Part shown: positions 4,144-64,000 of the stretch, piece by piece
Numbering within the stretch: the first letter of the stretch is position 1
How the letters are laid out: each line of letters opens with the position of its first letter
Assembly (NCBI RefSeq): GCF_031085375.1
Contig: NZ_JAVCWF010000001.1
Location: 186,001-250,000, forward strand
Origin: Lactiplantibacillus brownii
Lineage (GTDB): Bacteria; Bacillota; Bacilli; Lactobacillales; Lactobacillaceae
DNA: 64,000 nt
Direction: 5' to 3'
Translations under genes and position numbers: made by a program
Notes under the pieces: model-generated
Told to the model about the DNA's origin: nothing
Database searches by the model: none
Seen by the model: only the letters and a program-made list of their open reading frames with translations

Positions 4144-5025
4144 ATGGATAATACAGCAGTAGCACCTAAAAATGCCAATTCAAAGCAAAACACCGCGCGT
4201 CGGCATCGTTTCTGGAAGCAATTCTGGACCTACTTTTACATGGTTATCTTGGGAATCATTGTTATTTATCCCGTTTTAATCACGTTTATCACGGCGTTTA
4301 AAGATGCCAACGTCCAAGCTTTCGTTTTAGACTTTGGTGGTAAATGGACTTTAGCCAACTTCAAAACGTTATTTACCTCGACGCTTTATGGTAGCTGGTA
4401 CTTGAACACGATGGTCATCTCCATTTCATGTATGGTCATCCAAGTTATCGTTGTTACTTTAGCCGGGTATGTATACAGTCGTTACCGCTTTGCCGGTAAG
4501 AAATTCAGTTTGACCTTCTTCATCGTTATTCAAATGGTCCCAACGATGGCTGCTTTGACGGCTTACTACGTTTTGGCCAACATGTTAAATGCGTTGGATC
4601 ATTACTGGTTCTTAACCGCAATTTACATTGGTGGTGGGATTCCACAAAACACTTGGTTGATGAAAGGTTACTTCGATAACGTCCCTTACGATTTGGATGA
4701 ATCCGCTAAGTTGGATGGTGCCGGAAACTTCAAGATTTTCTGGTCGATCGTCTTACCATTGGTTAAACCAATGATTGCTGTCCAAGCCTTATGGGCCTTC
4801 ATGTCACCAGTGCAAGATTACCTGATGGCGAAGTTCTTATTGACTTCCGAATCGCATTACACGGTTGCCGTGGGGTTACAAACGTTCATTAACAACGCGC
4901 AGAACCAACAAGTCGTCTTATTCTCGGCTGGTGCCATTCTGGTAGCCTTCCCAATCGCCGCCTTGTTCTTCTACCTACAACGATTCTTCGTTTCCGGCTT
5001 GCTTGCTGGTGGTAGTAAAGGTTAA
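4144..5025 (+). CDS. malG: Maltodextrin ABC transporter permease MalG
   Basis: This 293-residue permease has about six membrane helices and the loop motif [10 protein letters not shown] (about residue 185) followed by IVLPLVKP, which docks the ATPase. The start at 4144 is chosen because GGAGG (4130-4134), inside the end of malF, lies 9 bp upstream; a longer in-frame start would lie within malF. Translation is probably coupled to malF. It partners with MalF in maltodextrin import. Confidence 0.95.
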
Positions 5026-5030
5026 TTTCC

Positions 5031-5172
5031 GTCCACTATCCGCCGTGACGGGCTGGAACGCTGTGGGCAGCGACTTTAAGCCGGAAGACCACGTCTTAAA
5101 GCTCGGCCTTCCCTAAGGCGCCAAGAACGCACCTAAGGGAATTTCACGGCTGAGCCCCGGCTCCTAGTGGAC
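5031..5172 (-). repeat. B-related structured element inside the mal operon
   Basis: This 142-bp element is closed by the perfect inverted repeat GTCCACTA / TAGTGGAC (5031-5038 and 5165-5172) and then GCCGTGA / TCACGGC (5042-5048 and 5144-5150). Three inner hairpins follow: CGCTG/CAGCG, CTTTAAG/CTTAAAG (5074-5101) and TTCCCTAAGG/CCTAAGGGAA (5109-5141, one mismatch). Read on the minus strand it shares the segment around GCTTTAAGACGTGG with module B of the composite repeats elsewhere in the window. It lies between malG and the malA-like gene and would be transcribed as part of the operon mRNA. Confidence 0.75.
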
Positions 5173-5315
5173 TATGATCCAAATATTCATAACGTTGACA
5201 GATATTCAGTTAATTATTATGAGCTGGTGTTGGTTAGGCCGTTGTTCCACCGCGTAGCTGTTTGATCAGTAGCAGTGGCAAAGAACTACTCAAAAAATAG
5301 TAGAGGTGAATTTTG

Positions 5316-15655: not shown

Positions 15656-15795
15656 GGTCGATCCTCCTATCGGTTCATTATTTGGAAATGCTTCAATGGT
15701 AATAGTCAAAACGTGCGATGAAAAACTACTGGGACTGGCAGTTTCTAATCACACGTTTCAATACTAATTTAAGCATACAGAGACTAAGTGTTCAC

Positions 15796-16325
15796 TTGTC
15801 GCTCCGGCTGGTCTGGACTGGTGCTGGAACGTGGTGGCCACGTTTGTGAGCCAAAGGGCGGTCTCACAAGCCGGGCTTTTCCTAAGCTGGAGGTGCACCA
15901 GCAACCGAAACGTGTTCGGTCCAACTGCCCCCTCCGCTTACTACGCCATCACAACCACTCGGAAAACCGCCGGGTAATTGTAATGGCTAGGTAAATGCTC
16001 AGGAGCAACCCGTTGGTCCTCACACTCTAAAAAATTTCACCACTGAGCATCATCCAGCCCAACCTACGCTAAATAGTGAGTCTGATATTAATTGGCTTTT
16101 TGTCGGGTTCTGACTTTACTATTGTCTAAATTACAATCACTATTTGACGTCGTAGTGGACCAGTTCGTTCGCCGTGTCGAGACACTTAGCTGGGTGATAT
16201 TCCCAGGTTAGTGTCTGGCCGACTTTTAAGACGTGGACTTCCGGCTTGAAAGCGCCCTGCAGACCGCTTTTTGGCTGCAGGTCTGCCTCACAGCGAACGT
16301 GCTGGTCCACGGAGACGGACAATTA
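15796..16325 (+). repeat. Composite A-B structured repeat, copy 1 (module A interrupted)
   Basis: Module A (15796 to about 16071) starts CTTGTCGCTCCGG and ends with ACCACTGAGCATCATCCAGC. It is split by about 125 bp (about 15904-16028) not found in the other copies. The linker runs to about 16146. Module B (16147-16325) is closed by GTGGAC / GTCCAC, with CGTTCGC / GCGAACG inside, and ends GGACAATTAA. It lies between the alpha-galactosidase start and the sucrose PTS gene. Short ORFs here are by-products of the palindromes, not genes. Confidence 0.9.
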
Positions 16326-16343
16326 AGAACCTATTTTAAATAA

Positions 16344-18302
16344 TTAAATTGCTGCGGCGACGCCAGTTTGAGCAGGCTCGGTCAAAGCGACTACTTGATC
16401 ACCAGCTGTGACTTGTTTGGCCGTCAAACGTTCAACATTGGCATAGTCAGCGGTATTCGTAATCACTAACATAACCGTTGGATCGTAGTTAGCCGCCTTC
16501 AAAGCTTTAACATCGAAAGTCCCTAATAAGTCACCCTTGTGGACGGTATCGCCTTTCTTAACCTTGGTCGTGAAATGTTCGCCATTTAAGTTGACAGTAT
16601 CGAGACCCAAATGAATCAATACTTCGGCACCATCAGTTGTTTTGATGCCATAGGCGTGCATGCTGTCATAAGTGACGGTGATAGTCCCATCGGCCGGCGC
16701 TAAAACTTGATCATCTGTTGGGATGAAGGCCGCGCCTTTACCCATGATTTCTGCAGAGAAGACTTGGTCGTTAACATCGCGTAAACTTTCAGCAGTCCCA
16801 CTAACAGGGGCAACCAATACTTCATCACTAACCAAACTAGCGGCTGGTGTGACCGAAGCATCAGTTGTTTCAGCTTTATCAGAATCGTCGCCTAAAGTTC
16901 GTTTGGCATAAACAAAGGTTGGAATAAAAGCGATGATAAAGGCAATAACAGCACTTAACATGAACGCTGGAATTGATTTGGAAGCAATTGAGATGAACCC
17001 AATGACGGAAGCAGGTCCCATGGCAACGGATAAGACGTGGAATAGCCCTAAGAAGACACAGGCAATCCCAGAAGCAATCGCACCGAAGACAAAGGGGTAT
17101 TTCATTTTCAAATTGACCCCGAAGATTGCGGGTTCAGTAATTCCAAGTAAGGCTGACAGGCCGGCAGAAGAAGTCAATGCCTTTTGTTTTTGACTCTTAG
17201 TGGCAAAGAAGATGGCTAAAGTTGCGGCACCTTGTGCAATGTTGGCCATGGAAGCTACTGGGAAGATAAATGACCCACCAGTTTTGGCAACGTTGGCTAA
17301 GAGCTGCGTTTCAATTGCCGGGAACGTTTGATGTAGACCGGTAATGACGATGGCTGAATAGAGGAGTCCGAAGATCCCCATGCCGATCCAACCAGTAGTG
17401 TTGTAAAGACCAACTAAGCCGTTTGTTAACCAGTCACTAACGGTCCGTAAGACGGGGCCGACAATCGTGAAGGTTAAGAAACCGGTGATCACAATGGCAA
17501 ACATGGGGGTAAACGTAAAGTCGAAGGCCCCTTTGATGTGTTTGTGGAAAAACTTTTCTAAGGTTGCCAAGATGAAAGCAACTGCTAAGACTGGTAAAAC
17601 TTGACCTTGGTAACCGGCTTGAGAGATGTGTAAGCCAAAGACGTTCCAATAAGGCATTTTACCGGCAGCCATGGTTGCGGCAACACTGTAACCATTAACT
17701 AAGGATGGTAAGACCATGATCATCCCCATGGCCGCACCTAGATAAGGATTACCACCGAATCGCTTGGTAGCTGAAAATCCCAGCAAAATTGGTAAGAAGG
17801 TGAATGGCGCACTTGCCATGGCGTTGATCATTTCGGCGATCCCTTTTAAACCGGGATAAACTTCAACGATGGATTTTGCCATGAAAAGATGTTCAGCAGT
17901 CAAAACGTTGTTCAAAGCCATTAATAGCCCACCAGCGACTAACGCTGGAATAATAGGAATAAAAATATCTGATAGCACTTTAAGAAAGTCCATTAATGGA
18001 TTGCGTTTTTGACCGGCGCTGGCGACCGCTTTAATATCGTCGGGAGTGGCTTCTTTCAAACCGGTTGCAGTGATGAGGGCATCGTAGACATGATCAACAT
18101 CCCCAGGGCCAATGATGATTTGATATTGACCGTTTGTTTCAAAAGTCCCTTTAACATCGGGATCATTGTCTAATGCTTTTTGATCGATTTTTGACTCATC
18201 CTTGATAACTAACCGTAATCGAGTTGCACAATGGGCAGCTGCTTGAAGGTTGTTTTTACCAATTGCGGCTAAGACGCGGTTCGCAACTTCTTGATGGTTC
18301 AT
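16344..18302 (-). CDS. scrA: Sucrose-specific PTS enzyme IIBCA
   Basis: This 652-residue fused PTS permease has an N-terminal EIIB domain with phosphorylated Cys25 (HCATRLRL), a membrane EIIC domain (about 105-460, about ten helices) and a C-terminal EIIA domain with His564 ([14 protein letters not shown]). It imports and phosphorylates sucrose to sucrose-6-phosphate. The start is set by AGGAGTGG about 8 bp upstream. It is divergent from the sucrose-6-phosphate hydrolase gene with a shared regulatory region. Other beta-glucoside-type EIIBCA substrates are possible, but the neighbours argue for sucrose. Confidence 0.92.
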
Positions 18303-22758: not shown

Positions 22759-22793
22759 AAACAACTTGAAATTGGCTATAAGGCTTCCGCTTA

Positions 22794-23190
22794 GCTTGTC
22801 GCTCCGGTTGGTCTGGACTGATGCTGGAACGTGGTGGCCACGTTTGTGAGCCAAAGGGCGGTCTCACAAGCCGGGCTTTCTCTAAGCTGGAAAGTTCACC
22901 AGCAAAGAGAAATTTCACCACTGAGCATCATCCAGCCCGCCCTGCGCTAATTAGTGATGCTAATTTTTAAGGCTCTGGTTTTACTATTGCCTAAAAGATA
23001 ATTACTATCTAAAGTTGGAGTGGACAAGTTCGTTCGCCGTGTCGAGACTCTTAGCTGGGCGATTTTACCCATGTTAGTGTCTGGCCGACTTTTAAGACGT
23101 GATTTTCGGTTTGAAAGCGCCCTGCAGACCGTTCTTTGGCTGCAGGTCTGCCTCCACGGCGAACGTGCTGGTCCACGGAAACGGACAATT
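22794..23190 (+). repeat. Composite A-B structured repeat, copy 2
   Basis: Module A is 22794-22951, the linker runs to about 23010, and module B is 23011-23190. Module A has the outer helix CTGGA..TGATGCT..GTGGTG with CACCAC..AGCATCA..TCCAG and the inner helices TTGTGAG/CTCACAA, TTTCTCT/AGAGAAA and GCTGG/CCAGC. Module B has GTGGAC/GTCCAC and a perfect CGTTCGCCGTG/CACGGCGAACG. It lies in the 3' region of the alpha-glucosidase transcript, before the terminator at 23242. Confidence 0.92.
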
Positions 23191-23241
23191 GACCAACCGA
23201 ATTGGCAAGTTAAGCCTGATAACTACTAGGAATAACAAAAA

Positions 23242-26065: not shown

Positions 26066-26222
26066 GTTGCCACTTCGGTTGGTCTGGATCGATGCTGGAA
26101 CGTGGTGGCCACGTTTGTGAGCCACAAAGCGGTCTCACAAGCCGGGCTTTGACTAACCCGAGCAAACCCCACTCGGCTAAGTCAAATTTCACCACTGAGC
26201 ATCATCCAGCCCGCCCTCGTTA
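26066..26222 (+). repeat. Solo module A of the composite repeat
   Basis: The full module A outer helix is present, but two inner helices have been completely rewritten while staying complementary: TTTGACT/AGTCAAA and CCGAG/CTCGG, in place of TTTCTCT/AGAGAAA and GCTGG/CCAGC. No module B follows. The next 280 bp (26223-26499) have no gene and nothing else recognised. Confidence 0.9.
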
Positions 26223-26499
26223 AATGTGCGCTAATTTCCAATCAACTTTAGTACAAAAATTATTTCTAAATAGCTTAATTTTGCTCGATCCTATCGAGAC
26301 CATGCTGTTTAAAGACAGCGAGTTTTGCATTAAGAACAAGGTAAAAGAGAGTCAACTTTAGTTGGATTACTAGTATGGTATTTAGCGTTTTAATATGAGG
26401 GGGATCTCCTGCCTTTGTCAAGAGTTTTGAATAACTGTTTATCAGTCATTCATCTTCAATTTTACTTTTAAATGGCTAGGTCATATTAAAAATAAGTCA

Positions 26500-26840
26500 T
26501 TAATGGTCTGTCTCCATATGACCAGCGCGTTGTGAAGCAAACCTGTAGCCAAAAATCGGCCAGTCACCAATCTGGGTAGCTCATCCCGCTAAATGACTCG
26601 ACACGGTAAACGAATTGGTCCACTTCACCGCTGAGTAACGATTTAATCAAAAGAACATTGATAAATTGATATTAGGACCACTAATTAGCGTAGGCGGGGC
26701 TGGATGATGCTCAGTGGTGACCTTTTCCTTGGCTGGTGAACTTCCAGCTTAGGAAAAGCCCGGCTTGTGAGACCGACCTTTGGCTCACAAACGTGGCCAC
26801 CACGTTCCAGCATCAGTCCAGACCAACCGAAGCGGCAATT
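26500..26840 (-). repeat. Composite A-B structured repeat, copy 3 (module B shortened)
   Basis: In minus orientation module A is 26840-26682 and the degenerate module B is about 26628-26500. Module A has TTTTCCT/AGGAAAA in its third helix. Module B has lost the hairpin around CTTTTAAGACG and is otherwise worn. The linker shares ATCAATGTTCTTTT with copy 4. Together with the solo A at 26066 it forms a pair of inverted A modules about 460 bp apart. Confidence 0.85.
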
Positions 26841-26910
26841 AATCGCTATCAATGCCACTTTACTAAACTGGAATATTTTTCAAAATTAGAAATAGTTCCG
26901 TCAATAATGA

Positions 26911-37203: not shown

Positions 37204-37250
37204 GAAATCAGCTAACTGTCAGGAAAGCTGACCATAGCCGAAGTGAGTTA

Positions 37251-37662
37251 TTAATTGTCCGTCTCCGTGGACCAGCACGTTCGCTGTGGGGCAGACCTGC
37301 AGCCAAAGACCGGTCTACAGGGCGCTTTTAAGCCGAAACCCGCGTCTTAAAAGTCGGCCAAACACTAACCTGGGAAAGCCGCCCAGCTAAGTGTTTCGAC
37401 ACGGCAAACGAGCTAGTCCACTCCGAAGTTAAACAGGAATTTAACAAAAGAACATTGATAAATCCCTGTTTAACGAAAAATCAATTGTTATTAAGAATCA
37501 CAGATTAGCGCAGGGCGGGCTGGATGATGCTCAGTGGTGAAATTTCTCTTTGCTGGTGAATTTCCAGCTTAGAGAAAGCCCGGCTTGTGAGACCGACCTT
37601 TGGCTCACAAACGTGGCCACCACGTTCCAGCATCAGTCCAGACCAACCGGAGCGGCAAGTTA
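37251..37662 (-). repeat. Composite A-B structured repeat, copy 4
   Basis: Minus orientation: module A 37662-37504, linker, module B 37430-37251. Module A helix 3 is TTTCTCT/AGAGAAA. Module B has AACACT/AGTGTT where copies 1 and 5 have GACACT/AGTGTC, a compensated change, and a perfect CTTTTAAG/CTTAAAAG. It starts about 60 bp after the oppA stop on the same strand and is followed by the terminator at 37203. Confidence 0.92.
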
Positions 37663-37719
37663 AGTGGGCACTGAACGTTACAAAAATATTAGCGTGATTC
37701 AAACACAAACAGTAATGCG

Positions 37720-42256: not shown

Positions 42257-42968
42257 TCGAGGCCACCAATTTGTACGCTATGCGGACGACTGTAACATTT
42301 ATGTCAAAAGTAAGCGTGCTGGTGAGCGAGTCCTGAGGAATATTACTAAATTCCTAGAAAACAGTTTAGAAGTGACAGTCAACAAGAAGAAAACAACGGT
42401 TGGGTCACCATTAAGACTAAAGTTCTTGGGATTTACGCTGGGTGTTGATCGAAATGGGGCGTATCCGCGTCCACATGGAATTGCCAAGCAATGTGTCAAA
42501 CAGTCACTTAAAGTTATGACAGGTCGAAGCCGAAGTATCAGTTGGCAACAATTGATGAAAGAAATTCGTCAGAAAATGCGAGGATGGTTGCAATATTATG
42601 GGATTGGTAAGTTGAAGACGTTTATTCAGCAATTGGACACATGGCTTAGAAGTCGTATAAGACAATTGATTTGGAAACGTTGGAAAAAGGCCAAAACCCG
42701 AATTCGTCAACTGATGAAAATAGGCATGACAGTAGAGCAAGCCAAGACCAATGCCAATACCCGAAAGGACTATTGGAGAACAGCGCATAGTAAGACGATG
42801 TGCTATACGTATACGAATGAAAAGCTGGAGTGTTTTGGACAGATTTATCAGTCCAAGACACTCCAGCTTATTCAGAATACTTAAATTATTGAACCGCCGT
42901 ATACGGATCCGTACGTACGGTGGTGTGAGAGGTCGGTAATTGAAATAATCAATTACCTCCTACTCGAT
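42257..42968 (+). mobile_element. 5'-truncated group II intron
   Basis: The remnant carries the end of an intron-encoded reverse transcriptase and, after it, domain V (42891-42934, GCCGTATACGGATCCGTACG and the matching TACGGTGG) and domain VI (hairpin GGTAATTG / CAATTACC, 42936-42958), ending near CTACTCGAT. Domains I-IV and the first half of the protein are missing, so it cannot splice or move by itself. Confidence 0.88.
42258..42884 (+). pseudogene. Group II intron reverse transcriptase/maturase, C-terminal part
   Basis: The readable frame begins RGHQFVRYADDCNIYVKS, holding the catalytic YADD, and runs through the maturase (GIIM) region (MRGWLQYYGIGK) to a stop at 42884, about 208 residues. 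Full-length proteins have 420-600 residues, so the N-terminal fingers and palm motifs are gone and there is no proper start. Confidence 0.9.
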
Positions 42969-57505: not shown

Positions 57506-57527
57506 GCTAAAGTCTGTTTGATGGTTC

Positions 57528-57613
57528 TCCAAATAAGCATTGCTCCCTTGCGCTGGCATTATCCAGATCAGGTTCAATGGGTATTATCTCAGCCGAATGG
57601 CACCCCAGTTGCT
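57528..57613 (-). promoter_or_regulatory. TPP riboswitch (THI element)
   Basis: On the minus strand the conserved parts read GGGGTGCC, GGCTGAGATAATACCC, TGAACCTGATCTGGATAATG and CCAGCGCAAGGGAGCA, in the right order and spacing. Bound thiamine pyrophosphate favours the terminator at 57470-57505 and shuts off ykoEDC. Confidence 0.96.
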
Positions 57614-57768
57614 ATGAATGATTAGTTTCAGTGTAAACGAATTCAGGGTGCAACGCAATTAACAATTTTGCCTAGTGAGCAAAGTTCATTGGAAAATCAT
57701 GATTTTGTGCTTTACTTAAGTTAGTAAACCTCGCAGATTAATTTTTTAACGGATTGGAGGGGAAAATC

Positions 57769-63380: not shown

Positions 63381-63427
63381 TAGCGTGTCATTACTCTAGC
63401 TTTTCGAGTAATGGCACGCTGTTTTTT
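63381..63427 (+). terminator. Terminator of the TetR gene
   Basis: The stem AGCGTGTCATTACTC / GAGTAATGGCACGCT is followed by TTTTTT. Confidence 0.9.
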
Positions 63428-63492
63428 AAATGTGATCATTTAAATTGTTGAAACTAATGTGGTGTAGCTCTCATATTTATAAGTATCCGCTT

Positions 63493-63903
63493 AACTTGCC
63501 GTTCCGGTTGGTCTGGCTTGATGCTGGAACGTGGTGGCCGCGTTTGTGAGCCAAAGTGCGGTCTCACAAGCCGGGATTTTCCTAAGCTGGAAAAACCACC
63601 AGCAAAGGAAAATTTCACCACTGAGCATCATCCAGCCCGCCCTGCGCTAAATAGTGGATCTAATATTAATTAGCTTTTTGTCAGGTTCTGACTTTACTAC
63701 TACCCAGATTAAAATCACTGTTTGACGTCGGAGTGGACTAGCTCGTTTGCCGTGTCGAGACACTTAGCTGGGTGATTTTCCCAGGTTAGTGTCTGGCCGA
63801 CTTTTAAGACGTGGGCTTCGGCTTGAAAGCGCCCTGCAGACCGGTCTTTGGCTGCAGGTCTGCCTCACAGCAAACGTGCTGGTCCACGGAGACGGACAAT
63901 TAA
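63493..63903 (+). repeat. Composite A-B structured repeat, copy 5
   Basis: Module A is 63493-63651, the linker runs to 63723, and module B is 63724-63903. Helix 3 of module A is TTTTCCT/AGGAAAA. Module B has CGTTTGC/GCAAACG where copy 2 has CGTTCGC/GCGAACG, a compensated change. The linker shares GCTTTTTGTC with copy 1. The remaining 97 bp to the window end hold no feature I can support. Confidence 0.92.
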
Positions 63904-64000
63904 TGAGCTATTTTAATAAATATAATAGCTTCACCACACTAAAGGTTTTGACCCTTTTCCCAGCTTGTCTTCGATAAAAGCAAACCGTGTTTAACGAGTT

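Follow-up and report, generated by a model that had tools for sequence, protein, structure and literature searches.

An inverted pair of branched, covarying units dispersed in Lactiplantibacillus brownii: a candidate foldback mobile element

What kind of element repeats itself between the genes of Lactiplantibacillus brownii, and why do its copies change on both sides of their helices? The locus at issue lies near the end of the window (the whole 64,000-nucleotide stretch of DNA analysed here), where the original prediction placed one of five copies of a two-module element of undescribed type. Structured RNA, a non-autonomous transposon with folded ends and a REP-like protein target were all proposed. 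Our best explanation, to which we give a probability of roughly 0.5, is a non-autonomous foldback mobile element whose folded single strand (most likely ssDNA) would be recognised by a trans-acting protein.

Copies in the window and parts of the element

With positions 63401-64000 as BLAST query against the window, matches were obtained at 37667-37250 and 22786-23190 and, each split in two, at 15791-15910 with 16031-16353 and at 26845-26551 with 26553-26484. All five copies originally predicted were thus recovered, in full or in part. With a covariance model of arm A, made from 85 arms (R1), the window yields seven units of A type (at 5025, 15795, 22795, 26066, 26688, 37508 and 63495), two of which, at 26066-26221 (+) and 5025-5173 (+), had been omitted from the predicted list. 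By BLAST and covariance model the window holds five two-arm elements and two further arms.

The relation between the two modules is also not as first supposed. Both are present, but they are not unrelated: four elements have an R1 match in arm B with the strand reversed (E 6.3e-11, 3.4e-9, 5e-8 and 6.8e-5), and A is therefore homologous to the reverse complement of B. On this sequence homology the element is best described as an inverted pair of one multi-branched structured unit of ~155-185 bp. By eye, A and inverted B have in common a hairpin loop GCCAAAG..CGGTC and a second hairpin of the CTAA..CTAAG type, and arm B has one hairpin more than arm A.

The best-kept copy reaches further than the limits first proposed (63493-63903): its ~28-bp inverted ends adjoin TA at 63455-63456 and at 63940-63941, and the whole element, terminal repeat to terminal repeat, is the 483 bp from 63457 to 63939, with TA on both sides. 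The left outer terminal inverted repeat is at 63457-63484 (+), where 63463-63486 fits the repeat pattern with 2 mismatches, and the right one at 63912-63939 (-). Arm A (63495-63647, +; R1 171 bits) comprises a closing helix (63506-63525/63624-63641), the GTGGTG/CACCAC helix (63531-63536/63616-63621) and hairpins H1 (63537-63576) and H2 (63577-63612). A variable linker (63648-63722) separates it from arm B (63723-63908, +), the inverted homologue with the extra hairpin, in which R1 matches 63754-63834 on the minus strand (E 3.4e-9); here the closing helix is 63726-63754/63866-63894 and the hairpins are 63758-63794, 63795-63834 and 63836-63863.

Two other copies have the same plan. The element at 37246-37667 consists of arm A at 37508-37659 (-; R1 178 bits) and arm B at 37246-37431 (-), and that at 22786-23197 of arm A at 22795-22947 (+; R1 177 bits) and arm B at 23010-23197 (+). 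In the element at 26484-26845, arm A (26688-26839, -; R1 166 bits) is accompanied by an arm B with an internal deletion (26484-26633, -), whose inner limit of ~26633 is taken from the BLAST pieces. The nearby unit at 26066-26221 (+; R1 161 bits) is of A type, with the H2 variant TTTGACT/AGTCAAA and tip CCGAG/CTCGG; the unit at 5025-5173 (+; R1 65.6 bits, E 5.9e-19) is a diverged one. No arm in the window is crossed by an ORF of 80 aa or longer, and one such ORF ends at 5025, the start of a unit.

The copy at 15796 has an alpha-galactosidase gene on one side and a PTS gene on the other. Its arm A is interrupted: the 5' part (15795-15904, +) is followed by an extra module C of ~130 bp (15905-16034, +), which begins CCGAAACGTGTTCGG, and arm B is at 16145-16331 (+). 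The extra module is also found within arm A of loci L061 (incomplete), L065, L066 and L067; in elements of genome G003 a stretch like module C adjoins the second arm (by eye). Units of the L. brownii genome that score 62-93 bits may carry it too.

Covariation and the conserved fold

If it is the fold, more than the sequence, that is maintained, as originally claimed, paired positions should change together. In the genus alignment of arm A (85 rows), both sides vary in 25 of 46 pairs, for a total of 317 cells where shuffling gives a mean of 73. For arm B (53 rows) the corresponding figures are 31 of 62 pairs and 136 cells, with a shuffled mean of 22. In neither case did any of 500 shuffles reach the observed count. 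Sliding the 3' partners gave at most 39 cells for A and at most 24 for B, a control that is partly favoured because both structures were derived from the consensus. Individual pairs illustrate the range of substitutions: A columns 99/137 hold UA 35, CG 25, AU 15, GC 9 and UG 1, and A columns 100/136 hold AU 34, UA 31, CG 19 and one other (85 rows each); B pair 26/158 holds CG 24, UA 24 and UG 5 (53 rows). The helix variants named in the original prediction are in the sequence and hold over the many more copies of these alignments (85 rows for A, 53 for B). Since both-side counts exceed all 500 shuffles in both arms, the compensatory changes are real and chance is excluded.

The same is evident across Lactobacillaceae. 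A family alignment of 127 matches was condensed at 85% identity to 70 clusters. Over these divergent clusters 41 of the 46 model pairs keep at least 75% Watson-Crick (2635 of 2795 cells in those 41 pairs) and three or four Watson-Crick types occur in 33 of the 46 (counted by eye), although the alignment was fitted to the model and the counts lean towards it. The unpaired motifs and loops GCTGGAACG, GCCAAAG..CGGTC and CTGAGC are conserved across genera, as is the branching. A model-free test of the closing stem gave a similar picture: of 14 positions beside the core, 11.55 were Watson-Crick within a copy, against 8.36 between copies, where the left side of one unit was compared with the right side of another (161 units, found by pattern), so that this stem is copy-specific. 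In L327 and L328 (genome G086) closing stems of ~15-20 bp vary by copy and pair well, and have runs of A and T on their flanks, like bidirectional terminators (all by eye). Together these data show strong covariation within genus and family – not the lack of it that would have spoken against a structured element – and agree with maintenance of the fold more than of the sequence.

Conservation along the element follows the arms. Of 39 L. brownii copies retrieved, 33 could be aligned without a break. Their two arms average 0.94 and 0.93 identity to the consensus, the linker 0.75 and the outer parts 0.59 and 0.58: the arms stay alike while the other parts drift.

Distribution, ends and orthologous sites

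In the L. brownii genome R1 finds at least 123 units at E at or below 0.001, all on the 3.0-Mb contig C1. The figure is a lower bound, since 150 of 1159 first-look candidates were scored. These units correspond to about 100 places (82 without a detected neighbour and 21 neighbour pairs); many B arms are missed by R1. Units are present in 19 of 21 genomes of the genus sample, R1 finding none in G001 and G002. In the family sample, with stricter filters and 25 candidates scored per genome, 25 of the 121 genomes, from 10 of the 40 genera, have them, one of the ten genera being represented by a single match (E 4.8e-4). The order sample, an undercount with 15 candidates scored per genome, gave matches in at least 5 of 198 genomes; two of the five lie outside the family and have one weak match each. 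Among the matches listed in a pattern scan are Lactiplantibacillus songbeiensis, dongliensis, nangangensis, daoliensis and pingfangensis, and Companilactobacillus furfuricola and zhongbaensis. In another family of the order, L394 and L395 each hold a single weak relative (1501-1671 in both; E about 2e-5 to 3e-5), which in L394 follows a long ORF for a putative ABC transporter; these units are possibly an older single-copy form.

Plasmids, too, carry relatives, and a restriction to the chromosome, which the placement of all 123 L. brownii units on C1 and a plasmid search with the L. brownii element had suggested, was rejected as a rule for the family. That element itself had no match among plasmids and phages. 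Elements of G003 and G016, used as queries, each matched 26 plasmid records, from Lactiplantibacillus (19) and Ligilactobacillus (7), including plasmids of L. plantarum and L. salivarius; the matches cover at most 41% of the query, at 86-87% identity for the G016 element. A stretch of ~345 bp that contains one arm is 86% identical between the two genera. The G091 element matched 7 plasmid records in short pieces. No element was found in phage sequences, nor in viral contigs with one exact 23-base pattern. No empty site was found on plasmids, where there are deletions inside an element only: L410 (L. plantarum plasmid pPLAN563) differs from L405 by deletions of 279 bp and 160 bp, the latter spanning an arm core, with overlaps of 10 and 8 bp at the joints.

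Neighbouring units are almost always convergent: 104 neighbour pairs 61-900 bp apart (from partly overlapping sets) comprise 93 '+-', 8 '++', 3 '--' and no '-+'. Direct repeats of units are seen in G121 (L325 and L326: '++(+)' then '-') and in G010 (L335: '++' then '--'). The element seems to insert between genes. By a simple picking of neighbours that is blind to ORFs across the element, the ORFs flanking 39 L. brownii copies are convergent in 12 cases, tandem in 23 and divergent in 4 (14 '>E>', 12 '>E<', 9 '<E<' and 4 '<E>'). Units are sparse between 1.4 and 1.8 Mb of C1 (3 of 123, against about 16 expected). The GC skew of sampled C1 loci is positive to 1.5 Mb and negative from 1.8 Mb, and the unit-poor region is presumed to surround the replication terminus.

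Ends like those of the best-kept copy are recognisable elsewhere. Of the 78 ends of the 39 L. brownii copies, 34 agree with a 24-bp terminal core at no fewer than 16 positions (shuffled left flanks reach 13-14 at the 95% level). TA abuts the core in 14 of these 34; at eleven other offsets it is found in 1-6 of the 34 each. The terminal-repeat pattern, at up to 3 mismatches, has 13 matches in the genome (0 for the reversed control), every one of which adjoins a unit (twelve from the R1 list, the thirteenth a weaker B-type unit); none was found in this genome away from units. The TA could be part of the repeat rather than a target duplication: the sequence read at the orthologous place in G009, the one relative used for this comparison, is highly diverged. 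Two C1 copies, beside 2128857 and 2562501, have ~13 bp in common outside the terminal repeats. Copies within G019, G003 and G016 are 70-92% alike over longer pieces and therefore give no clean target duplication; near-identical recent copies that would fix the exact ends were not found in these three genomes.

Between the BLAST matches of the PTS and alpha-galactosidase genes there are 676 bp in L. brownii and 8 bp in both G011 and G009: the 15.8-kb copy is absent from both relatives between otherwise adjacent genes. The 37-kb copy is absent from G009 (93 bp between BLAST matches, against 683 bp), as is the 63-kb copy from its orthologous place. At the roughly 70-85% identity of these comparisons, absence is visible and the exact joint is not. 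Insertion would be the simplest reading at all three sites, loss in the relatives being possible, and the absences in G009 make the element look like a mobile foldback element. Not every site in the window is free in relatives. At 26 kb R1 matches are present in both G011 and G009, in G011 to another subtype directly after an identical flank; at 22.8 kb R1 finds nothing in either, and G009 has a stretch resembling hairpin H1 (by eye). Sites can therefore be shared, reused or decayed.

Candidate mechanisms and known systems

The two strands of a unit tolerate mismatch differently. In the genus alignments, GT and AC cells number 29 and 71 in A-sense and 61 and 28 in B-sense, and because A and B are inverted homologues these biases concern the same homologous strand, whose 3' end is at the outer end of the element. 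The 70 divergent clusters agree (A-sense GT 31, AC 63; p 0.0013), whereas the L. brownii A arms alone show no bias (7 to 7). This strand also folds more stably when each is folded separately. With the 75% filter its GT:AC ratio is 1.8 to 4.2, against 72:7 (~10) for RNase P RNA of 30 Lactobacillaceae. Unfiltered genus alignments give 177:27 (A) and 261:24 (B), against 342:17 for RNase P, and unfiltered unit ratios range from 2.1 to 10.9, B being highest, against 20; alignment errors may lower the filtered unit ratios. As far as alignments can tell, the constraint is strand-specific and weaker than in RNase P RNA. We read the strand data as tending towards single-stranded DNA, RNA being possible too, and the unfiltered counts shift the odds slightly to RNA and away from a foldback element.

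A structured RNA – the units being transcribed outward from the linker or within neighbouring mRNAs, with the fold selected for 3'-end protection, termination or protein binding – is the alternative best placed to account for a wobble-tolerant, more stable strand homologous in both arms, for unfiltered ratios nearer to that of RNase P, for arms kept while flanks decay and for the terminator-like A and T runs of the two G086 copies. One G003 linker (and a second, by eye) also carries a sigma-70-like TTGACT-16-TATTAT facing the second arm. We consider it possible but doubtful: the filtered ratios fall well short of RNase P, the L. brownii A arms are unbiased, no conserved promoter is evident by eye in the inspected part of the L. 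brownii linkers, the units face no consistent way relative to tandem neighbours (14 against 9) and, with the arms opposed, no single transcript has both in the favoured sense. Alternatively, selection for function may have played no part in the compensatory changes: cruciform or hairpin intermediates, together with gene conversion between arms, would re-template stems from one side and homogenise the copies within a genome. Stems so restored to perfect pairing would have few wobbles, and GT and AC cells are indeed rare in the well-paired columns of the family alignment (94 of 2795); signatures are common to copies within species, and the joint overlaps of the L410 losses are as expected of hairpin slippage. 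Such an origin is nevertheless unlikely, since stems alone leave unexplained the unpaired motifs, loops and branching conserved across genera, and the strand asymmetry would still need a strand-specific constraint.

The remaining alternatives turn on the mobilising enzyme. Y1_Tnp (PF01797) has no match at E 0.001 in the L. brownii genome; a Y1 transposase is present in 13 of the 21 genus genomes, including both element-free ones, whereas 8 of the 19 genomes with elements, L. brownii included, gave no match. DDE_3 (IS630 type) is present in 1 of the 21, not L. brownii. Neither being found in L. brownii, both were rejected as mobilisers. Strict REP/BIME repeats maintained by a domesticated Y1 transposase (RAYT) would share the high copy number, the inverted pairs of hairpin units, the location between genes and the scarcity near the presumed terminus. 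This reading is the least probable of all, given that no Y1_Tnp was found in L. brownii and seven other element-bearing genomes, its presence in both element-free ones, and units that are multi-branched and 150-185 bp long, not 20-40 bp. A REP-like target in the strict RAYT sense, one of the options first proposed, is thus unsupported. The element might also be an ordinary MITE, a shortened form of a known insertion sequence of which this strain lacks the transposase; that would account for outer inverted repeats beside TA and for element-free sites in relatives. This reading too is very unlikely: a search of the L. brownii genome, allowing 3 mismatches, found no insertion sequence bounded by these ends, DDE_3 occurs in 1 of the 21 genus genomes, and the outer repeats are the least conserved part of an element whose hallmark across genera is its structured arms. 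No autonomous version was seen beside units in the stretches inspected from other genera, and the idea that the longer G003 and G016 linkers contain the remnant of a gene was rejected, their translated frames being interrupted by stops. Two inverted unit pairs of G086 (L327, 8137-8807; L328, 7910-8538) each enclose a small ORF; one product, of 86 aa, is weakly RelB-like (E 0.018, below cut-off) and the other, a hydrophobic peptide of 39 aa, has no Pfam match and presumably resembles Fst-type toxins.

Of the explanations first offered, a non-autonomous transposon with folded ends fits best, given inverted arms, terminal repeats and element-free orthologous sites. In such a foldback element each copy would be an inverted pair of the branched unit, which would act as a folded single strand, most likely ssDNA, at the element ends; a trans-acting protein, none being found here, would recognise the fold and so let the element be copied into intergenic DNA; and in L. 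brownii the ends would bear short outer inverted repeats beside TA. This reading is supported by covariation in A, in B and across Lactobacillaceae, by the match of R1 to the reverse complement of B and the predominance of '+-' pairs, by intergenic placement and the copies absent from G011 and G009, by the TA abutting a terminal repeat whose pattern occurs only beside units, by relatives on plasmids of two genera and by the copy-specific closing stem. Against it stand the failure to find an autonomous relative, a mobilising enzyme or near-identical recent copies (70-92% alike), the units that relatives have at the 26-kb site and the H1-like stretch seen by eye in G009 at the 22.8-kb site. Nor does selfish decay after insertion predict arms 93-94% like the consensus with ends at 58-59%; such conservation calls for selection on the resident copies, for gene conversion or for lineages that stay active over long periods. 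More tentatively, the family may be a novel class of foldback transposon, with branched ssDNA ends of ~155 nt, an enzyme that reads shape and strand, and a spread over at least 10 Lactobacillaceae genera and plasmids.

As predicted, no named Rfam family matches the element at gathering score, and the hits of a permissive scan (E 0.89 and 9.9) fall well short of gathering scores. Elsewhere in the window, at gathering score, a TPP riboswitch lies at 57525-57617 (-) and a Group II intron match (RF00029) at 42892-42968 (+). Full-text searches outside subscription journals returned no description of such a repeat in Lactobacillaceae. The accessible portions of PMC2267715 and PMC1590033 list L. johnsonii, do not name L. 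plantarum and contain no description; that of PMC3733652 has none of a Lactobacillaceae repeat. Provisionally, the repeat family is apparently undescribed. It would represent an annotation gap in a much-used food and gut family, with more than 100 structured, strongly covarying units per genome and members in 10 of 40 sampled Lactobacillaceae genera and on plasmids. It also makes a question testable: is a DNA fold of this size and branching read by some protein, in recombination or through an RNA pathway?

Several known systems bear comparison. Bacterial MITEs, including those of IS630/Tc1 type, are short and non-coding, with terminal inverted repeats and TA targets. The present element is likewise short and non-coding, has terminal inverted repeats beside TA and is missing at orthologous sites; it differs in having no matching transposase or insertion sequence here, and in that the folded arms, not the ends, are conserved. 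Integron attC sites, which stand in cassette arrays beside an integrase gene, are recombined as folded single strands and have copy-specific complementary stems; the element may be analogous in both respects, but its variable stem is at the base and its conserved core distal. The BOX repeat of pneumococci is modular. BOX and RUP are interspersed repeats of a Gram-positive chromosome, as described in the accessible part of PMC3049150, and belong to another group of organisms; the likeness drawn here is one of description. REPs, according to the accessible portions of PMC2817692, PMC3116915 and PMC3733652, are palindromes of 20-40 bp tied to a Y1 transposase; as there described, REP/BIMEs and REPINs resemble the present element in exceeding 100 copies per genome, in alternating or inverted pairs of hairpin units, and in being intergenic and non-autonomous, whereas the units here are branched, ~155-185 nt long and found in genomes without a detected Y1. 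With the structured RNAs of Rfam, finally, the element shares extensive covariation and a multi-branch fold, but it stands at about 100 dispersed places, in inverted pairs.
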